From contig NZ_JACSDK010000009.1 in assembly GCF_014925385.1 (NCBI RefSeq), positions 62,001 through 126,000 of the forward strand: 64,000 bases of DNA, written 5' to 3'. Every line of letters begins with the position of its first letter. Position 1 is the first letter of the stretch. Position numbers and translations under genes: made by a program. Of this stretch, positions 4,692 through 62,557 are shown piece after piece. This stretch comes from Pelagibius marinus (GTDB lineage Bacteria > Pseudomonadota > Alphaproteobacteria > Kiloniellales > Kiloniellaceae). The notes below the pieces were generated by a model. That model made no database searches. It saw only the letters and a program-made list of their open reading frames with translations, and was not told where the DNA came from.

Positions 4692-5498
4692 TCAGGCCGC
4701 GTGCAACAATGCGCGCCACTTCCCGGGCGTGGTGCCGAAGGCCGCGCGGAACTGCCGCGTCATGTGCGCCTGGTCGGCAAAGCCGGCGCTCGCAGCCGCG
4801 GCTGCCAGGGAGCGGCCCTCGGCGATGGCGCCTTTGGCGAGGTCGAGGCGGCGCAGGGTGACGAAGCGGCTGGGCGAGACGCCGTAGGCCTTGCGGAACT
4901 GCCGGGCCAGGGTAAAGCGGTCCAGGCCATGCTCGCGCTCCAGCACCGCCAGGGAGATGCCTTCGGCGCAGGTCGCCGCCAGGTGATCCTTCACGCGGGC
5001 CATGCGCGGGTGCCGCACCGCCGGCCGCAGGGGCGCCCCCGACGCCCGCGCCAGCGCCCCGGCCAGGAGGGTGACGCGGTCGTTCTCGGCAAGCGCCTCA
5101 CGCGGGTCGTCAGGATGCGGGAAGAGCGCGGGAACGACCGCCCGCAGCGCCCGGTCGCGGGCCAGCGGATCGGGCACGAAGGGCAGCGCGGCCCCGCCGA
5201 GCGCTTCGCCGATCAGCTCCGGGGCGACGTAGACGATCCTGTAGCCGAAGCCGCCCTCCCTGCCCGGCCGGCCGTCGTGCAGCTCGTCGGGATGCAGCAC
5301 GAAGACGTCGCCGGGGCAAGAGGCCCGCGCCGCACCGCGATAGGTGAAGGCCTGCACGCCATGGGTGGTGACGCCGACGGCGTAGGTGTCGTGGCGGTGC
5401 GGCGAGAACTGCAGGTCCACCAGGGCCGCCTCGGCCCAGTCGAAACCGGGCGCCGCCGCACGGTAGCGCAGCCATTCCAACTGCTGTCTCGCTGTCAT
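4692..5498 (-). CDS. AraC family transcriptional regulator
   Basis: 268 aa. The N-terminal ~150 residues form a cupin-like AraC ligand domain (FSPHRHDTYAVGVTTHGVQAF, then GDVFVLHPDELHDGRP). The C-terminal ~100 residues hold two helix-turn-helix units: ISLAVLEREHGLDRFTLARQF and LAAAAASAGFADQAHMTRQF, then GTTPGKWRAL. It is divergent from the LysE-type exporter at 5549 with only ~50 bp between, so it probably controls that exporter in response to the exported metabolite. ATG at 5498 is chosen over a TTG at 5507. Confidence 0.9.
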   Translation of the reverse strand: MTARQQLEWLRYRAAAPGFDWAEAALVDLQFSPHRHDTYAVGVTTHGVQAFTYRGAARASCPGDVFVLHPDELHDGRPGREGGFGYRIVYVAPELIGEALGGAALPFVPDPLARDRALRAVVPALFPHPDDPREALAENDRVTLLAGALARASGAPLRPAVRHPRMARVKDHLAATCAEGISLAVLEREHGLDRFTLARQFRKAYGVSPSRFVTLRRLDLAKGAIAEGRSLAAAAASAGFADQAHMTRQFRAAFGTTPGKWRALLHAA

Positions 5499-32350: not shown

Positions 32351-33067
32351 ATGAAGAGCTATGGCCAGTTCTGCCCCGTCGCCAAGGCTTCCGAGCTGTT
32401 CTGCGAACGCTGGACGCCGCTGATCGTGCGCGACCTGGCGGCCGGGGCGACGCGCTTTTCCGAGCTGCAGCGCGGCGTGCCGCTAATGTCGCCGACCCTG
32501 CTGTCGAAACGCCTGAAGCAGCTGGAGGCCGAAGGAATCATCGAAACGCGCCCGCAGAAGGGCGCGCGCGGCAGGACCTATCACCTGACCGAGCCGGGGC
32601 GCGAGTTCATCCCCCTGGTGGTGGCGCTGGGCACCTGGGGCCAGCGCTGGTCGCGCCGCCAGCTGGTGGAGGGCGAGGTCGATCTGGGCCTGCTGGTCTG
32701 GTCGCTGGAGCGCGCCGCCGACGCCACGGCCTTCGGCAAGCGGCAGTCCCTGGTGCAGGTGGAGTTCACCGACCAGCCCAAGGACAAGCGCCTCTGGTGG
32801 TTCATCAATCGGGACGGCAAGTGCGAACTCTGCCTGGAGGACCCGGGCTTCGAGGTCGACCTCTACCTGGCCTGCAGCCTGCCGGACATGATCTACATCG
32901 TGCGCGGCGACCTGCTGCTGCCCCAGGCGCTCTCCAGCGGGCGGCTGGAGGCCCTGGGCAGCACCCGCGCCCGCCGCGCGCTACGCGCCTGGCTGAACCT
33001 CAGCCCGCTCACGAAGGTCAAGTCGCAGAATCGCCTCGAAGCCGTCGCTGCGCCCCCGCGCCGGTGA
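32351..33067 (+). CDS. HxlR family transcriptional regulator with C-terminal sterol-carrier-like domain
   Basis: 238 aa. Residues ~1-110 are an HxlR winged helix: CPVAKASELFCERWTPLIVRDLAAGATRFSELQRGVPLMSPTLLSKRLKQLE. Residues ~130-230 form a second domain (SLVQVEFTDQPKDKRLWWFINRDGKCELCLEDPGFEVDLYL) of the SCP2-like type found in long HxlR proteins. ATG at 32351 follows AAAGGAGGAAGCC, a strong ribosome site. The divergent methyltransferase is the likely target. The 3' end overlaps that of the histidine kinase by 87 bp on opposite strands. Confidence 0.87.
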   Translation: MKSYGQFCPVAKASELFCERWTPLIVRDLAAGATRFSELQRGVPLMSPTLLSKRLKQLEAEGIIETRPQKGARGRTYHLTEPGREFIPLVVALGTWGQRWSRRQLVEGEVDLGLLVWSLERAADATAFGKRQSLVQVEFTDQPKDKRLWWFINRDGKCELCLEDPGFEVDLYLACSLPDMIYIVRGDLLLPQALSSGRLEALGSTRARRALRAWLNLSPLTKVKSQNRLEAVAAPPRR

Positions 33068-34481
33068 GTTGAGTTCCAGCTTGCCGCCGGACTGGGCGAG
33101 GATCGTCTCGACGATGGCGAGGCCCAGGCCGGCGCCCGGGGCCCCGGCGGCGCCCCGCTCGCAACGGCGGGGGAGGGGGGGAAGGGGCCGCGGGGGGGCC
33201 GGGCGGCCCGCGCCCCCCGCCCGGCGCCTCGGCGGCGCCGCGCTCGAAACGCCGGGTCAGGGTGGCAAGGCGCTGCGGCGGCACCACGGGACCGCCGTTG
33301 ACCACGTGGATCGAGCCGTCACCCTCTATGTGGACCACCACCGGCCCGCCCTCGCGGCCGTGGTGCAGGGCATTGTCGATGAGGTTGCGCAGGGCGATGG
33401 CGAAGGCGTCGATATCGGTGCGCGCCACCAGCCGCGCGCGGCCGCCGTCGTCGAAGTGCAGCCGCCCGCCGTTGTCGCCGCGGCGCGCGAACTCCTCCAC
33501 CACCAGGCGAAAAGCCGGCATGACGTCCACGGGATCGCGCCTGAGGGCGATGCCCGACTCGGCGCGGGCTAGCTGCAGCAGCTTTTCCACCAGATCGCCG
33601 AGGCGGTGCAGGGTCGCTGCGATCTGGTCGATGCGCGCCTGCTGCGGCGTGCCGCGCAGCTCGGCGGCCAGGCGCTGGGTCTGGGCCAGGGCGGCCGCCA
33701 CCGGCGTGCGCAGCTCGTGGGCCGAATTGGCGGCGAAGGCGCGCTCGCTCTCCAGCACCCTTTCCAGGCGCGCCAGCAGGTCGTTCACGTCCTCGATGAT
33801 GGGCGCCAGCTCCTCCGGCATGGCCTCGTAGGGGATCGGCGAAAGGTCGCCGCCGCCGCGCGCGTCCAGGGCGGCGCGCACCTCGGCCACCGGCGCCAGG
33901 CTGCGGCGCACGGTCCAGAAGATGACCAGGCCCGCCAGGGGAATGAGCACGGCCAGCGGTGCGGCTACCCCGCCCAGGGTCTCGTAGACCGCCTCGCGGC
34001 GGTGGGACAGCGGTTCGCCGACCGTGATGAAGATCCGCCCCGGGGGCACGCGCTCGGTGAAGAAGCGCCAGTCGCCGGCCTCCGCGTGGCCGCGCTTCAG
34101 CGCCACCGGGAAGGGCTCCTCCGGGGCGTCATGGGAGCGCAGCAGCACATGACCCTCGGCGTCGCGCACCTGATAGACGAGGTATTCCTCGTGCTCGGCG
34201 AACTCCAGGTTCTCGGCGATCACGCGGACTTCGTGCGGATCGCCCCCGTCCTCGTCTTCGTCCTCGTCTTCGTCCTCGCCCCCCGGCACCGGAAAGCCGC
34301 TGACCACCAGCGGCGCCAGGCGCTGCGCGGTTTCCTGCAGGGCGCTGTCAAAAACCTCGTTGACCTCGTGGTTGACGATGCTGCCCGCCACCCCGGCGGC
34401 GGCGAGCCACAGCAGAATCAGCGCCGCGGTGAGGCCGGAGATCAGCCGTCGCGAGATGCTCCATCTTCGGGTATCGCCCAC
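32981..34481 (-). CDS. Sensor histidine kinase, reading frame broken by an 85-nt insert
   Basis: OmpR-partner type kinase: a membrane helix (LISGLTAALILLWLAAAGVAGS), a periplasmic sensor with an EDEDEDEDED run, a second helix, HAMP, the H-box NSAHELRTPVAAALAQTQ, and N-box LRNLIDNALHHGREGG. The frame is good to RRFERGAAEAPG at about 33220. It then runs through low-complexity residues. Deleting 33136-33220 (85 nt) restores GAGLGLAIVETILAQSGGKLELN and a normal end at 32981. So the gene is probably intact in the organism and the break is an assembly error. GTG start 34481, 8 bp after the regulator stop. Confidence 0.85.
33136..33220. repeat. 85-nt G/C-skewed imperfect duplicate inside the histidine kinase
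   Basis: Aligned without gaps to the next 85 bases, positions 33136-33195 match 33221-33280 at 48 of 60 places. All 12 changes in the first copy are to G or C (8 to G). Similarity falls off further along. The first copy also contains G-runs absent from the second. Removing it restores the kinase frame. A drift towards G is what poor two-colour-chemistry read ends look like. Confidence 0.8.
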
Positions 34482-34489
34482 GCCGCCCC

Positions 34490-35149
34490 CTAGTCCGAAC
34501 CCAGGCGGTAGCCGACGCCGCGCACCGTGTGAATGGCGTCGCGGCCGAGCTTCTTGCGCAGGCGGCTGATGTGCACCTCGACGGTGTTGCTCTCGATCTC
34601 CGAGCCGAAGTCGTAGAGCGCCTCTTCCATCTGCTCCTTGGAGATCACGGCCGTCGCCCGCCGGGTCAGCAGGTCGAGGATCGCCCATTCCCGCTTGGTG
34701 AGGTCGATGGCCTCCTCGCCGCGCCACACGCGCCGCGCCGCCTTGTCGATCTTCAGCTTGCCGGAGCTGATCAGCGGGTTGGGATTGCCGGCATAGCGCC
34801 GCGAGACCGCCATGACCCGTGCGCTGAGTTCGTTCAGGTCGAAGGGCTTCACCAGGTAGTCGTCGGCGCCGGCGTTCAGCCCCTCGATGCGGTCGCTGAT
34901 CTGGTCGCGCGCGGTGAGGATGATGACCGGACGCTGGTCGCCGCCGCGCCGCAGGGTCTTCAGCAGATCGAGACCACGGCCGTCCGGCAGGTGCAGGTCC
35001 AGCAGCACCAGGCCGTAGTCGACCGCGCGCAGGGCCGCATCGGCCTCGTCCAGGCGGGCCACCCAGTCGACGGCATGCCCGTCGGCGGCGACCTGCTCCT
35101 GCACCGCCTGGCCGAGAACCGGCTCGTCTTCGATCAAGAGAACACGCAT
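34490..35149 (-). CDS. OmpR-family response regulator
   Basis: 219 aa. Receiver domain with MRVLLIEDEPVLGQAVQEQ, phospho-acceptor Asp in GLVLLDLHLPDGRGLD (~51), and LVKPFDLNEL with the conserved Lys. The C-terminal winged helix has LTKREWAILDLLTRR and NTVEVHISRLRKKLGRDAIHTVRGVGYRL. It pairs with the downstream histidine kinase. It is divergent from PepSY and cytochrome b561 genes. Direct repeats with 11-bp spacing in the gap are candidate binding sites. Confidence 0.95.
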   Translation of the reverse strand: MRVLLIEDEPVLGQAVQEQVAADGHAVDWVARLDEADAALRAVDYGLVLLDLHLPDGRGLDLLKTLRRGGDQRPVIILTARDQISDRIEGLNAGADDYLVKPFDLNELSARVMAVSRRYAGNPNPLISSGKLKIDKAARRVWRGEEAIDLTKREWAILDLLTRRATAVISKEQMEEALYDFGSEIESNTVEVHISRLRKKLGRDAIHTVRGVGYRLGSD

Positions 35150-44294: not shown

Positions 44295-45470
44295 CTACGC
44301 TTTGCATCCAACCCGCGCAGTTCTGTGACCGCATCTGCAAAGAAGAACGAGGCAGCCCAGGCCGATACCGATCAGGTAAGCCGTCGCAGGCTCCGCTACA
44401 GCAACTACAGCAGGCAGGTCGAACGCATAGATGAAATTGTCGTCCGACCCTATATAAAGAACGCTGTCTGAGATGAAGGGAGACGAGTCGACTGGGGCCC
44501 CGATGAATTCCTGCAATTCGATTTGCCCGGTTAGCGCATCGAGCCCATAGAGGAAACCATCACCCGAACCGAAATACACGACCCCGTCCAAGACGGTGGG
44601 CGATGACGCGATGGCGCCCCCCGTGATCGTTATCCAGAAGAGCTGGCCGGTCGATGCATCCAGTGCAAGCAGAAATCCATTATCCGATCCAGCAAAGACG
44701 GTATTGTCTGCGACTGCTGGTGAAGAGTTGACGTCGTCACCAGCGAGCGTAATCCACAGGACCTGGCCCGTCGCTGCGTCAAGGGTGTAGATTCCGCCAT
44801 TGTCCGAGCCGACATAGAGGAGACCGTCCACAACTGTAGGAGATGAATCGACGCTGCCTCCTGTTGTGGTCGTCCAAAAAATCTGACCGGTCTGAGCGCT
44901 GAGAGCATAGACGTTGTTGTCGGCCGAACCCACGTAGACGACGCCGTCGACCACGGTGGGAGACGAGTTCACCTCTCCCCCGGTATTCGTGATCCACAGG
45001 ACCTGACCCGTAGAGGCGTCAAGGGCATAGATCGAGCCGCTGTCCGAGCCGACATAGAGGAGACCGTTCGACACGGTAGGTGACGAATCGACGCTCCCTC
45101 CCGTTGCCGTCGTCCAAAACACCTCGCCGGTCTGAGCGCTGAGAGCATAGACGTTGTTGTCGGCCGAACCTACGTAGACGACGCCGTCGACCACGGTGGG
45201 TGACGAATTCACCTCTCCCCCGGTATTCGTAATCCACAGGACCTGACCCGTAGAGGCGTCAAGGGCATAGATCGAGCCGCTGTCCGATCCAACATAGAGG
45301 AGGCCATTCGCAACCGTCGGCGTCGAGTCGACATCACCTCCGGTGTCGGTAGACCAGATCGGAATTGCCTGTGACTCGTGCTGCGATGCCTGCACAAACG
45401 CCGCGGTCATCGTCAGCAGTCCGACGACTCCGAAAACCAACTTTCGTCTGAAGCGAGTATCGGCGGGCAT
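44295..45470 (-). CDS. Eight-bladed PQQ-like beta-propeller protein with PEP-CTERM-like tail
   Basis: 391 aa. A signal peptide (LVFGVVGLLTMTAAFVQAS), then eight 40-residue units built on SSPTVVDGVVYVGSADNNVYAL and DASTGQVLWIT, as in PQQ-enzyme-like repeats. The C-terminus AEPATAYLIGIGLGCLVLLCR followed by basic residues resembles a PEP-CTERM sorting tail (the first Pro is Ala). The protein would be exported and anchored or cut by an exosortase. Units 1-2 and 3-4 are nearly identical at DNA level. The gene is visibly less GC-rich than its neighbours, suggesting acquisition. A sigma-54-like promoter lies upstream. Confidence 0.8.
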   Translation of the reverse strand: MPADTRFRRKLVFGVVGLLTMTAAFVQASQHESQAIPIWSTDTGGDVDSTPTVANGLLYVGSDSGSIYALDASTGQVLWITNTGGEVNSSPTVVDGVVYVGSADNNVYALSAQTGEVFWTTATGGSVDSSPTVSNGLLYVGSDSGSIYALDASTGQVLWITNTGGEVNSSPTVVDGVVYVGSADNNVYALSAQTGQIFWTTTTGGSVDSSPTVVDGLLYVGSDNGGIYTLDAATGQVLWITLAGDDVNSSPAVADNTVFAGSDNGFLLALDASTGQLFWITITGGAIASSPTVLDGVVYFGSGDGFLYGLDALTGQIELQEFIGAPVDSSPFISDSVLYIGSDDNFIYAFDLPAVVAVAEPATAYLIGIGLGCLVLLCRCGHRTARVGCKA

Positions 45471-61111: not shown

Positions 61112-62557
61112 ATGATCGAGTTGCGCCCCGTCATCTTCGTCATCGGCATCCTGCTCTCGGTCCTGGCCGTGGCCATGATCATCCCGGCCATCGTCGACAT
61201 CTCGGTCGGCCATCCCGACTGGCAGGTCTTCTCCGTGGCCGCCTTCGTCACGCTCTTTGTCGGCGTTTCCATGATGCTGACCACGCGCGCCAGCCTGGGC
61301 AGCTTCTCGGTGCGCCAGGCTTTCGTCATGACCAACCTGGCCTGGTTCGTCATCGCCGCCTTCGGCGCCCTGCCCTTCCAGTTCTCGGAACTGGAGCTGG
61401 ATCCGGCTGACGCCTTCTTCGAATCCATGTCCGGCGTCACCACCACCGGCGCCACCGTCATCGTCGGCCTGGACTTCGCGCCGCCGGGCATTCTGCTGTG
61501 GCGGGCCATCCTGCAATGGCTGGGCGGCATCGGCATCATCGTCATGGCCGTGGCCATCCTGCCGATGCTGCAGGTCGGCGGCATGCAGATGTTCCGCGTC
61601 GAGGCTTTCGACACCGACAAGGTGCTGCCGCGCGCCGCGCAGATCGCCGGCGGCATCGCCATCATCTACGTCTTCCTGACCGCCGTGGCGGCGATGCTGC
61701 TGTGGTCGCTGGGCATGTCGGGCTTCGATGCCGTGGCCCACGCCATGACCTCCATCGCCACCGGCGGCTTCTCCACCTACGACGCCTCGGTCGGCCACTT
61801 CGACAACGCCGCCATCGACTGGGCGATGAGCGGCATCATGGTGCTGGGCTCGATTCCCTTCGTGCTTTACCTGCGCGTCATCCGCGGCGACCTGCGGCCG
61901 GTCTTCGCCGACACCCAGGTGCGCTGGTTCCTGACCATTCTGGCCATCGCCATCCTCTTCACCGCGGTGTGGCTGTACCGCGGCGACCTGATGGAGCCGC
62001 TGCAGGCCTTGCGCTACAGCACCTTCAACGTGATCTCGGTCATGACCGGCAGCGGTTTCGCCACCGCCGACTACGGGCGCTGGGGCAGCTTCGTGGTCGC
62101 CGTCATGTTCGTGCTGATGTTCGTCGGCGGCTGCGCCGGCTCGACCACCTGCGGCATCAAGATCTTCCGCCTGCAGGTGCTCTACGCCACGGCGCACGCC
62201 CAGATCCACCGCCTGATGCAGCCCAACGGCGTGTTCTTTCCCTACTACAACAAGAAGCCGATCCCCGATCCCGTGGCCACCTCGGTGATGAGCTTCTTCT
62301 TCCTCTTCGCCGCCAGCTTCGCGCTGCTGGCGGTCGGCCTGGGCCTCACCGGGCTGGACTTCATCACCGCCGTCTCCGGCGCCGCCTCGGCCATCGCCAA
62401 CGTCGGCCCCGGCCTGGGCGATGTCATCGGGCCGGCCGGCACCTACACCACCCTGCCGGACAGCGCCAAGCTGCTGCTCTGCCTGGGCATGCTGCTCGGA
62501 CGCCTCGAACTCTTCACCGTCCTGATCCTGCTCGCGCCCTCCTTCTGGCGGGGCTGA
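61112..62557 (+). CDS. trkH: Trk-type potassium uptake protein TrkH
   Basis: 481 aa with about ten helices and four P-loops. Selectivity-filter-like segments include SMSGVTTTGATV, SIATGGFSTYD, VMTGSGFATADY and ANVGPGLGDV. It imports K+ across the inner membrane. The TrkA regulator is not in the window. It starts 78 bp after folE and is followed by argE after 10 bp. Confidence 0.94.
   Translation: MIELRPVIFVIGILLSVLAVAMIIPAIVDISVGHPDWQVFSVAAFVTLFVGVSMMLTTRASLGSFSVRQAFVMTNLAWFVIAAFGALPFQFSELELDPADAFFESMSGVTTTGATVIVGLDFAPPGILLWRAILQWLGGIGIIVMAVAILPMLQVGGMQMFRVEAFDTDKVLPRAAQIAGGIAIIYVFLTAVAAMLLWSLGMSGFDAVAHAMTSIATGGFSTYDASVGHFDNAAIDWAMSGIMVLGSIPFVLYLRVIRGDLRPVFADTQVRWFLTILAIAILFTAVWLYRGDLMEPLQALRYSTFNVISVMTGSGFATADYGRWGSFVVAVMFVLMFVGGCAGSTTCGIKIFRLQVLYATAHAQIHRLMQPNGVFFPYYNKKPIPDPVATSVMSFFFLFAASFALLAVGLGLTGLDFITAVSGAASAIANVGPGLGDVIGPAGTYTTLPDSAKLLLCLGMLLGRLELFTVLILLAPSFWRG

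Follow-up and report, generated by a model that had tools for sequence, protein, structure and literature searches.

A G/C-shifted second copy of 85 nt that interrupts a sensor histidine kinase gene is very probably a sequencing and assembly artifact

Organization of the kinase locus

The window, by which we mean the whole 64,000-nucleotide stretch that was analyzed, covers positions 62001–126000 of contig C9 in a draft genome (G000) of 5.44 Mb in 35 contigs; the G+C content is about 68% in the 864 kb sampled. The minus strand carries a response regulator gene followed by the gene for a sensor histidine kinase, which is present in two pieces (Table 1). The HisKA domain of the kinase scored 47.7 bits, above the Pfam cut-off of 26.9, and the kinase and its regulator have the appearance of an ordinary two-component pair. 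An insert of 85 nt interrupts the kinase within its HATPase_c (ATPase) domain. As written, the ORF continues out of frame and is open to 33018, and a complete HATPase_c domain was not found in one frame of the as-written sequence, in which the match covers profile positions 2–74 of 111; the downstream piece alone gave a HATPase_c match under the Pfam cut-off. The original prediction held that the kinase resumes in frame and stops at 32981 when the 85 nt are left out. This was borne out by a check of frame continuity made on each piece separately, the pieces not being joined: the upstream piece (to 33222) has ..AAEAP at its end, GAGLGLAIVETI opens the downstream piece (from 33136), and the stop codon ends at 32981.

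Table 1. Features at the interrupted kinase gene, in window coordinates.
Feature	Coordinates	Strand	Details
Response regulator, intact	34490–35149	minus	Response_reg and Trans_reg_C domains
Sensor histidine kinase, upstream piece	33222–34481 (start about 34481)	minus	2CSK_N, HisKA, HATPase_c (profile 2–63 of 111)
Same kinase, downstream piece	32981–33136 (including stop codon)	minus	HATPase_c (profile 72–109 of 111)
Second copy, very probably false, 85 nt, 93% G+C	33136–33220		G runs at 33169, 33175 and 33192; C run at 33213
Copy taken as true	33221–33280		33136–33195 is its G/C-shifted image; uninterrupted alignment to relative G007
Perfect inverted repeat of 7 bp with a 5-nt loop (CGGCGCC-TCGGC-GGCGCCG)	33222–33240		At the break; less perfect in relative G007

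Extent and identity of the 85-nt copy

Realignment of 33136–33195 to 33221–33280 reproduced the gapless match that had been reported for these two intervals, with 48 of 60 positions identical. The offset of 85 was unique among the 30 offsets tried (70–99), the next best giving 30/60, and in a shuffle control (1000 single-letter shuffles, 740 placements) the best gapless match averaged 32 and never exceeded 38. Read from 33221–33280 to 33136–33195, the 12 differences consist of six C>G, two T>G and two T>C changes and one each of A>C and G>C; our count agrees with the earlier one that all 12 lead to G or C, eight of them to G. Under a null model that gives equal weight to the three alternatives for every base, the probability of 12 out of 12 changes to G or C is 6e-5. 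When all 85 positions are considered there are 25 differences, every one to G or C. Since 13 of these fall within the last 25 positions, similarity decays along the copy, just as had been described for the sequence past position 60.

The insert had originally been placed at 33136–33220. Its extent of 85 nt stands, and its exact edges can be shifted by 7 bases, since the motif CGCCCGG is present at 33133–33139 and again at 33218–33224; whatever the cut, the foreign core spans about 33140–33217.

Scanning for repeats without gaps gave 31 hits in 864 of the 1664 kb of G000 and 8 hits in 400 kb of the related genome G007. In five hits, all from G000 and none from G007, every difference leads to G or C on one side. 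Of these five, only the window site exceeds 67% G+C (88%); the other four, at 60–67%, we take to be ordinary repeats. Elsewhere in the window, 44564–45340 holds several copies of a direct repeat with a period of 240 nt and a G+C content of about 60%, and our impression is that these are the repeated domains of what is presumably a beta-propeller-type protein.

Comparison with related genomes

A DNA search with the kinase across eight genomes of the genus, G000 included, gave some match in seven of them. Long matches came from only two of the seven relatives: G007, at 86% DNA identity, and G001, at 72% across most of the gene. Of the other five, four had short matches of fewer than 100 bases and one had no match, in a DNA search that would miss a more diverged kinase homolog in those five. 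In G007, the upstream and downstream pieces fall on codons next to each other (L034 3158 and 3157), the kinase protein has a single HATPase_c match (profile 2–109), and the kinase and regulator DNA lie together as well. The G001 match to the downstream piece begins three codons past the last aligned upstream residue, and the last three residues of the upstream piece, which are unaligned, would fall in that three-codon space. In this comparison with close relatives, which had been proposed as a check, the 85 nt were found in neither of the two genomes of the genus that match the kinase at length (0/2), both of which are other species, so that by themselves they are compatible with a recent strain-specific insertion in G000. 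A genome-collection search with the kinase yielded six loci, all of them distant kinases with 27–29% identity, and a plasmid search, capped at 5000 records, gave regulators at 63–65% among the eight matches listed.

Error pattern and inverted repeat at the break

In small tests devised post hoc, after the sequence had been seen, the wrong letter of the copy equaled the preceding true letter in 10 of the 12 differences (null mean 6.4, P = 0.028) and the following true letter in 6 (null 6.2, P = 0.66). The preceding letter alone explained four differences, and the following letter alone explained none. Non-G letters standing after GG were wrong in 6/8 cases versus 5/25 elsewhere (Fisher P = 0.008), and the error rate by true base was 4/5 for T, 6/22 for C, 1/6 for A and 1/27 for G. 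The sequence GGGT was read as GGGG in 2/2 instances, and GGC as GGG in 4/6. Going from left to right, the pattern is the one expected of lagging (dephased) synthesis; dephasing after GG is a general Illumina error. Under the two-color dye scheme, nine of the 12 changes are of signal-loss types, and the remaining three (two T>C and one G>C) are not and need added signal. The tail at 33196–33217 gave 10 and 9 matches out of 22 for the two reading directions, as compared with a null of 7.5, so that its fit to either direction is close to that of random sequence.

Stalling could plausibly stem from the inverted repeat at 33222–33240. The predicted folding of the right flank was not unusual in comparison with shuffles (z of −0.96 and 0.33), and the matching stretch of G007 folds ordinarily too (z of 0.65 and 1.30); the left flank alone (33060–33140) folds better than shuffles (z of −2.43, 3 of 200). 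The hairpin was rejected as proof because right-flank folding is ordinary. An early source of the idea that GGC and inverted repeats are involved is reportedly Nakamura in 2011.

GC-rich sequence elsewhere in the assembly

The contig interiors were surveyed over 1.664 Mb of G000 (about 31%) for 60-mers with at least 57/60 G+C, with 0.4 Mb of G007 as the control. Such 60-mers occurred at four places in G000 (the window, L070, L137 and L119) and at one in G007, and since G007 itself has one in 0.4 Mb there is no difference in rate. At L137, around 10754–10814 on contig C13, a long ORF, which we read as that of a molybdopterin-type dehydrogenase, is split by an additional 53 nt with a G+C content of about 93%. 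Both pieces of the ORF match G007 in one frame, with 90% and 95% identity, and G007 is without the 53 nt; G001 is shorter at this locus by the same 53 nt, as judged from the positions of its two matches. The insert at L137 is probably the same kind of assembly error as that in the kinase. So, probably, is L070:10505–10615 on contig C1 (60-mer at L070:10487), where 92% G+C stands in place of the ordinary, A/T-containing sequence of G007. The site at L119:3805 was left out of the count of artifacts: it sits in an ORF that stays open, ExbD-like in our judgment, and neither G007 nor G001 gave a long match to it.

Junctions at which a G-run passes into a C-run numbered four in the 1.664 Mb of G000, located at the window site, at L070, at L137 and at the very start of contig C17, and one in the 0.4 Mb of G007; a stricter criterion left the same four loci in G000 versus none in G007, too few for a clear difference. 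The opposite order, a C-run followed by a G-run, was seen eight times in G000 and once in G007, and some of these cases seem to be ordinary inverted repeats that G007 has too. With 1.664 Mb compared to 0.4 Mb, no excess of interior GC-rich stretches or junctions over the control genome was found, and the interior counts were rejected as proof of an artifact because the rate in G007 is similar. A separate observation concerns L133:336–401 on contig C8, where two C-run/G-run inverted repeats lie about 47 nt apart in GC-rich sequence, possibly another assembly fault.

The contig ends differ from the background more clearly than the interiors do. The last 60 nt were scored in 25 of the 70 ends, one of which was masked, leaving 24 readable ends, and 20,000 random 60-mers served as the control. 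A G-run of at least 5 was present in 10/24 ends and a C-run in 10/24, versus 3.8% each of the random 60-mers, and G+C of at least 85% was reached in 5/24 versus 0.5%; two of the ten ends with a G-run (L167 and L168) are one repeated end and look like ordinary sequence. Three of 20 contig-end pieces (9.5 kb) carried four G-run-then-C-run junctions, as many as the 1664 kb of long stretches. The ends of C2 and C1 have long G-runs leading directly into C-runs, as expected if poly-G tails from two strands had been joined. Long G-runs and C-runs were also noted in the contig-end pieces L153, L158, L161, L162 and L163, with a G-run passing into a C-run in L153, L158 and L161, which suggests that these ends are untrimmed poly-G read tails.

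Discussion

We are highly confident that the 85 nt are a sequencing and assembly artifact arising from faulty read ends and are not part of the DNA of the organism. Assembly error had been the main reading of the original prediction, and it is upheld by the relatives, by the dependence of the errors on the preceding letter and by the GC-rich junk found elsewhere in the assembly. The read-level mechanism that we infer is as follows. Short reads would reach a very GC-rich, GGC-rich palindromic spot, lose phase there and drift to G. Reads from the left would give rise to the G-shifted image from 33140 to about 33195, a step that the error fingerprint supports, and reads from the right would probably supply the remainder, rich in C, as far as 33217. 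The assembler would then have fused these two decayed ends rather than finding the overlap in the true sequence, and some 60 nt would in consequence appear twice, once correctly and once as an error.

The artifact itself could take a second form, in which plain two-color dark-base (poly-G) tails, with no sequence-driven dephasing, account for the copy. We hold this version to be the lesser share of the artifact reading, appreciable though below even, and it adds nothing to the probability of that reading. Its appeal lies in the nine signal-loss changes and in the long G-runs at contig ends, whereas the dependence of the errors on preceding letters and the three changes that need added signal speak against it. 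Two-color chemistry as the cause is plausible, in that nine of the 12 changes would be signal losses under the dye scheme. An origin in two-color read ends, as originally proposed, is consistent with the data and falls short of proof; dephasing after GG explains many of the same letters. Poly-G tails are described as common in NovaSeq data (PMC12527978), which would fit the dark-base version.

The alternative originally offered was a genuine tandem duplication, since decayed with a marked bias toward G and C, that inactivates the kinase in this strain; the artifact is strongly favored over it, and we regard the duplication as very unlikely. The two copies are gapless and adjacent and have a 7-nt edge in common, as slippage would give, and the genome is GC-rich, at about 68% in 864 kb. 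Against these points, both relatives that match the kinase at length are without the insert, and the copy differs from its neighbor at 12/60 positions, more than the gene differs from its counterpart in G007 at 86% identity; the copy alone would thus have mutated, only to G or C, and increasingly along its length. The rest of the kinase is still recognizable in this strain, and similar GC-rich junk lies at unrelated loci and at the contig ends of the assembly. A genuine and very recent local duplication might also have been written in one event, by an error-prone, template-slipping polymerase that produced a G/C-shifted copy at the GGCGCC hairpin and inactivated the kinase, with the other GC-rich inserts stemming from the same activity; we give this even less credence. 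The sole point in favor of a programmed frameshift in the kinase, or of a GC-rich insertion with a function there, is that the ORF as written is open to 33018. This reading was rejected as extremely unlikely, since the insert is not conserved in the two relatives compared (G007 and G001), and furthermore the as-written HATPase_c match stops at profile position 74 of 111 and the insert copies its own neighbor.

If the 85 nt are a sequencing or assembly mistake, as we believe, then the kinase gene is probably whole in the organism. Most likely the kinase is intact in the living organism and works as the usual partner of the response regulator next to it, and a false pseudogene call is thereby removed. 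The findings suggest that the assembly carries decayed read ends inside contigs, and other apparently broken genes that lie beside stretches of about 93% G+C should therefore be doubted. For GC-rich draft genomes in general, the warning sign is a gapless, GC-shifted copy that adjoins G-runs and C-runs; G-run/C-run junctions alone are no commoner inside the contigs of this assembly than in the control G007.

Comparison with known systems

The error pattern has a close counterpart in published descriptions of Illumina systematic errors. According to Meacham 2011 (PMC3295828), most such errors are preceded by G, the strongest motif is T>G at GGT, and substitutions to G outnumber others; Allhoff 2013 (PMC3622629) ranks GGGT first among short error contexts. 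The copy shares several features with these accounts: errors that follow G or GG, T>G changes at GGGT, changes mainly to G, dependence on the preceding and not the following letter, and GGC and inverted repeats nearby. The agreement is partial because two further contexts ranked in PMC3622629 that occur in the window, CGGG (33253) and GGCGCCTC (33223), have their last letter, at which an error would be expected, read correctly in the copy (0/1 errors each). Another difference is that the errors described there sit in reads, whereas those of the window seem to have been built into the contig as a false duplicate. With the two-color poly-G tails described in PMC12527978, the likeness lies in the G-runs and the G-run/C-run junctions at the contig ends of G000; those tails are plain poly-G, whereas the copy in the window is a decayed image of its neighbor. 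As for the genes, the locus compares with a kinase of the 2CSK_N/HisKA/HATPase_c type standing beside a Response_reg–Trans_reg_C regulator: the kinase has the same three domains, and the sole difference is the apparent break.
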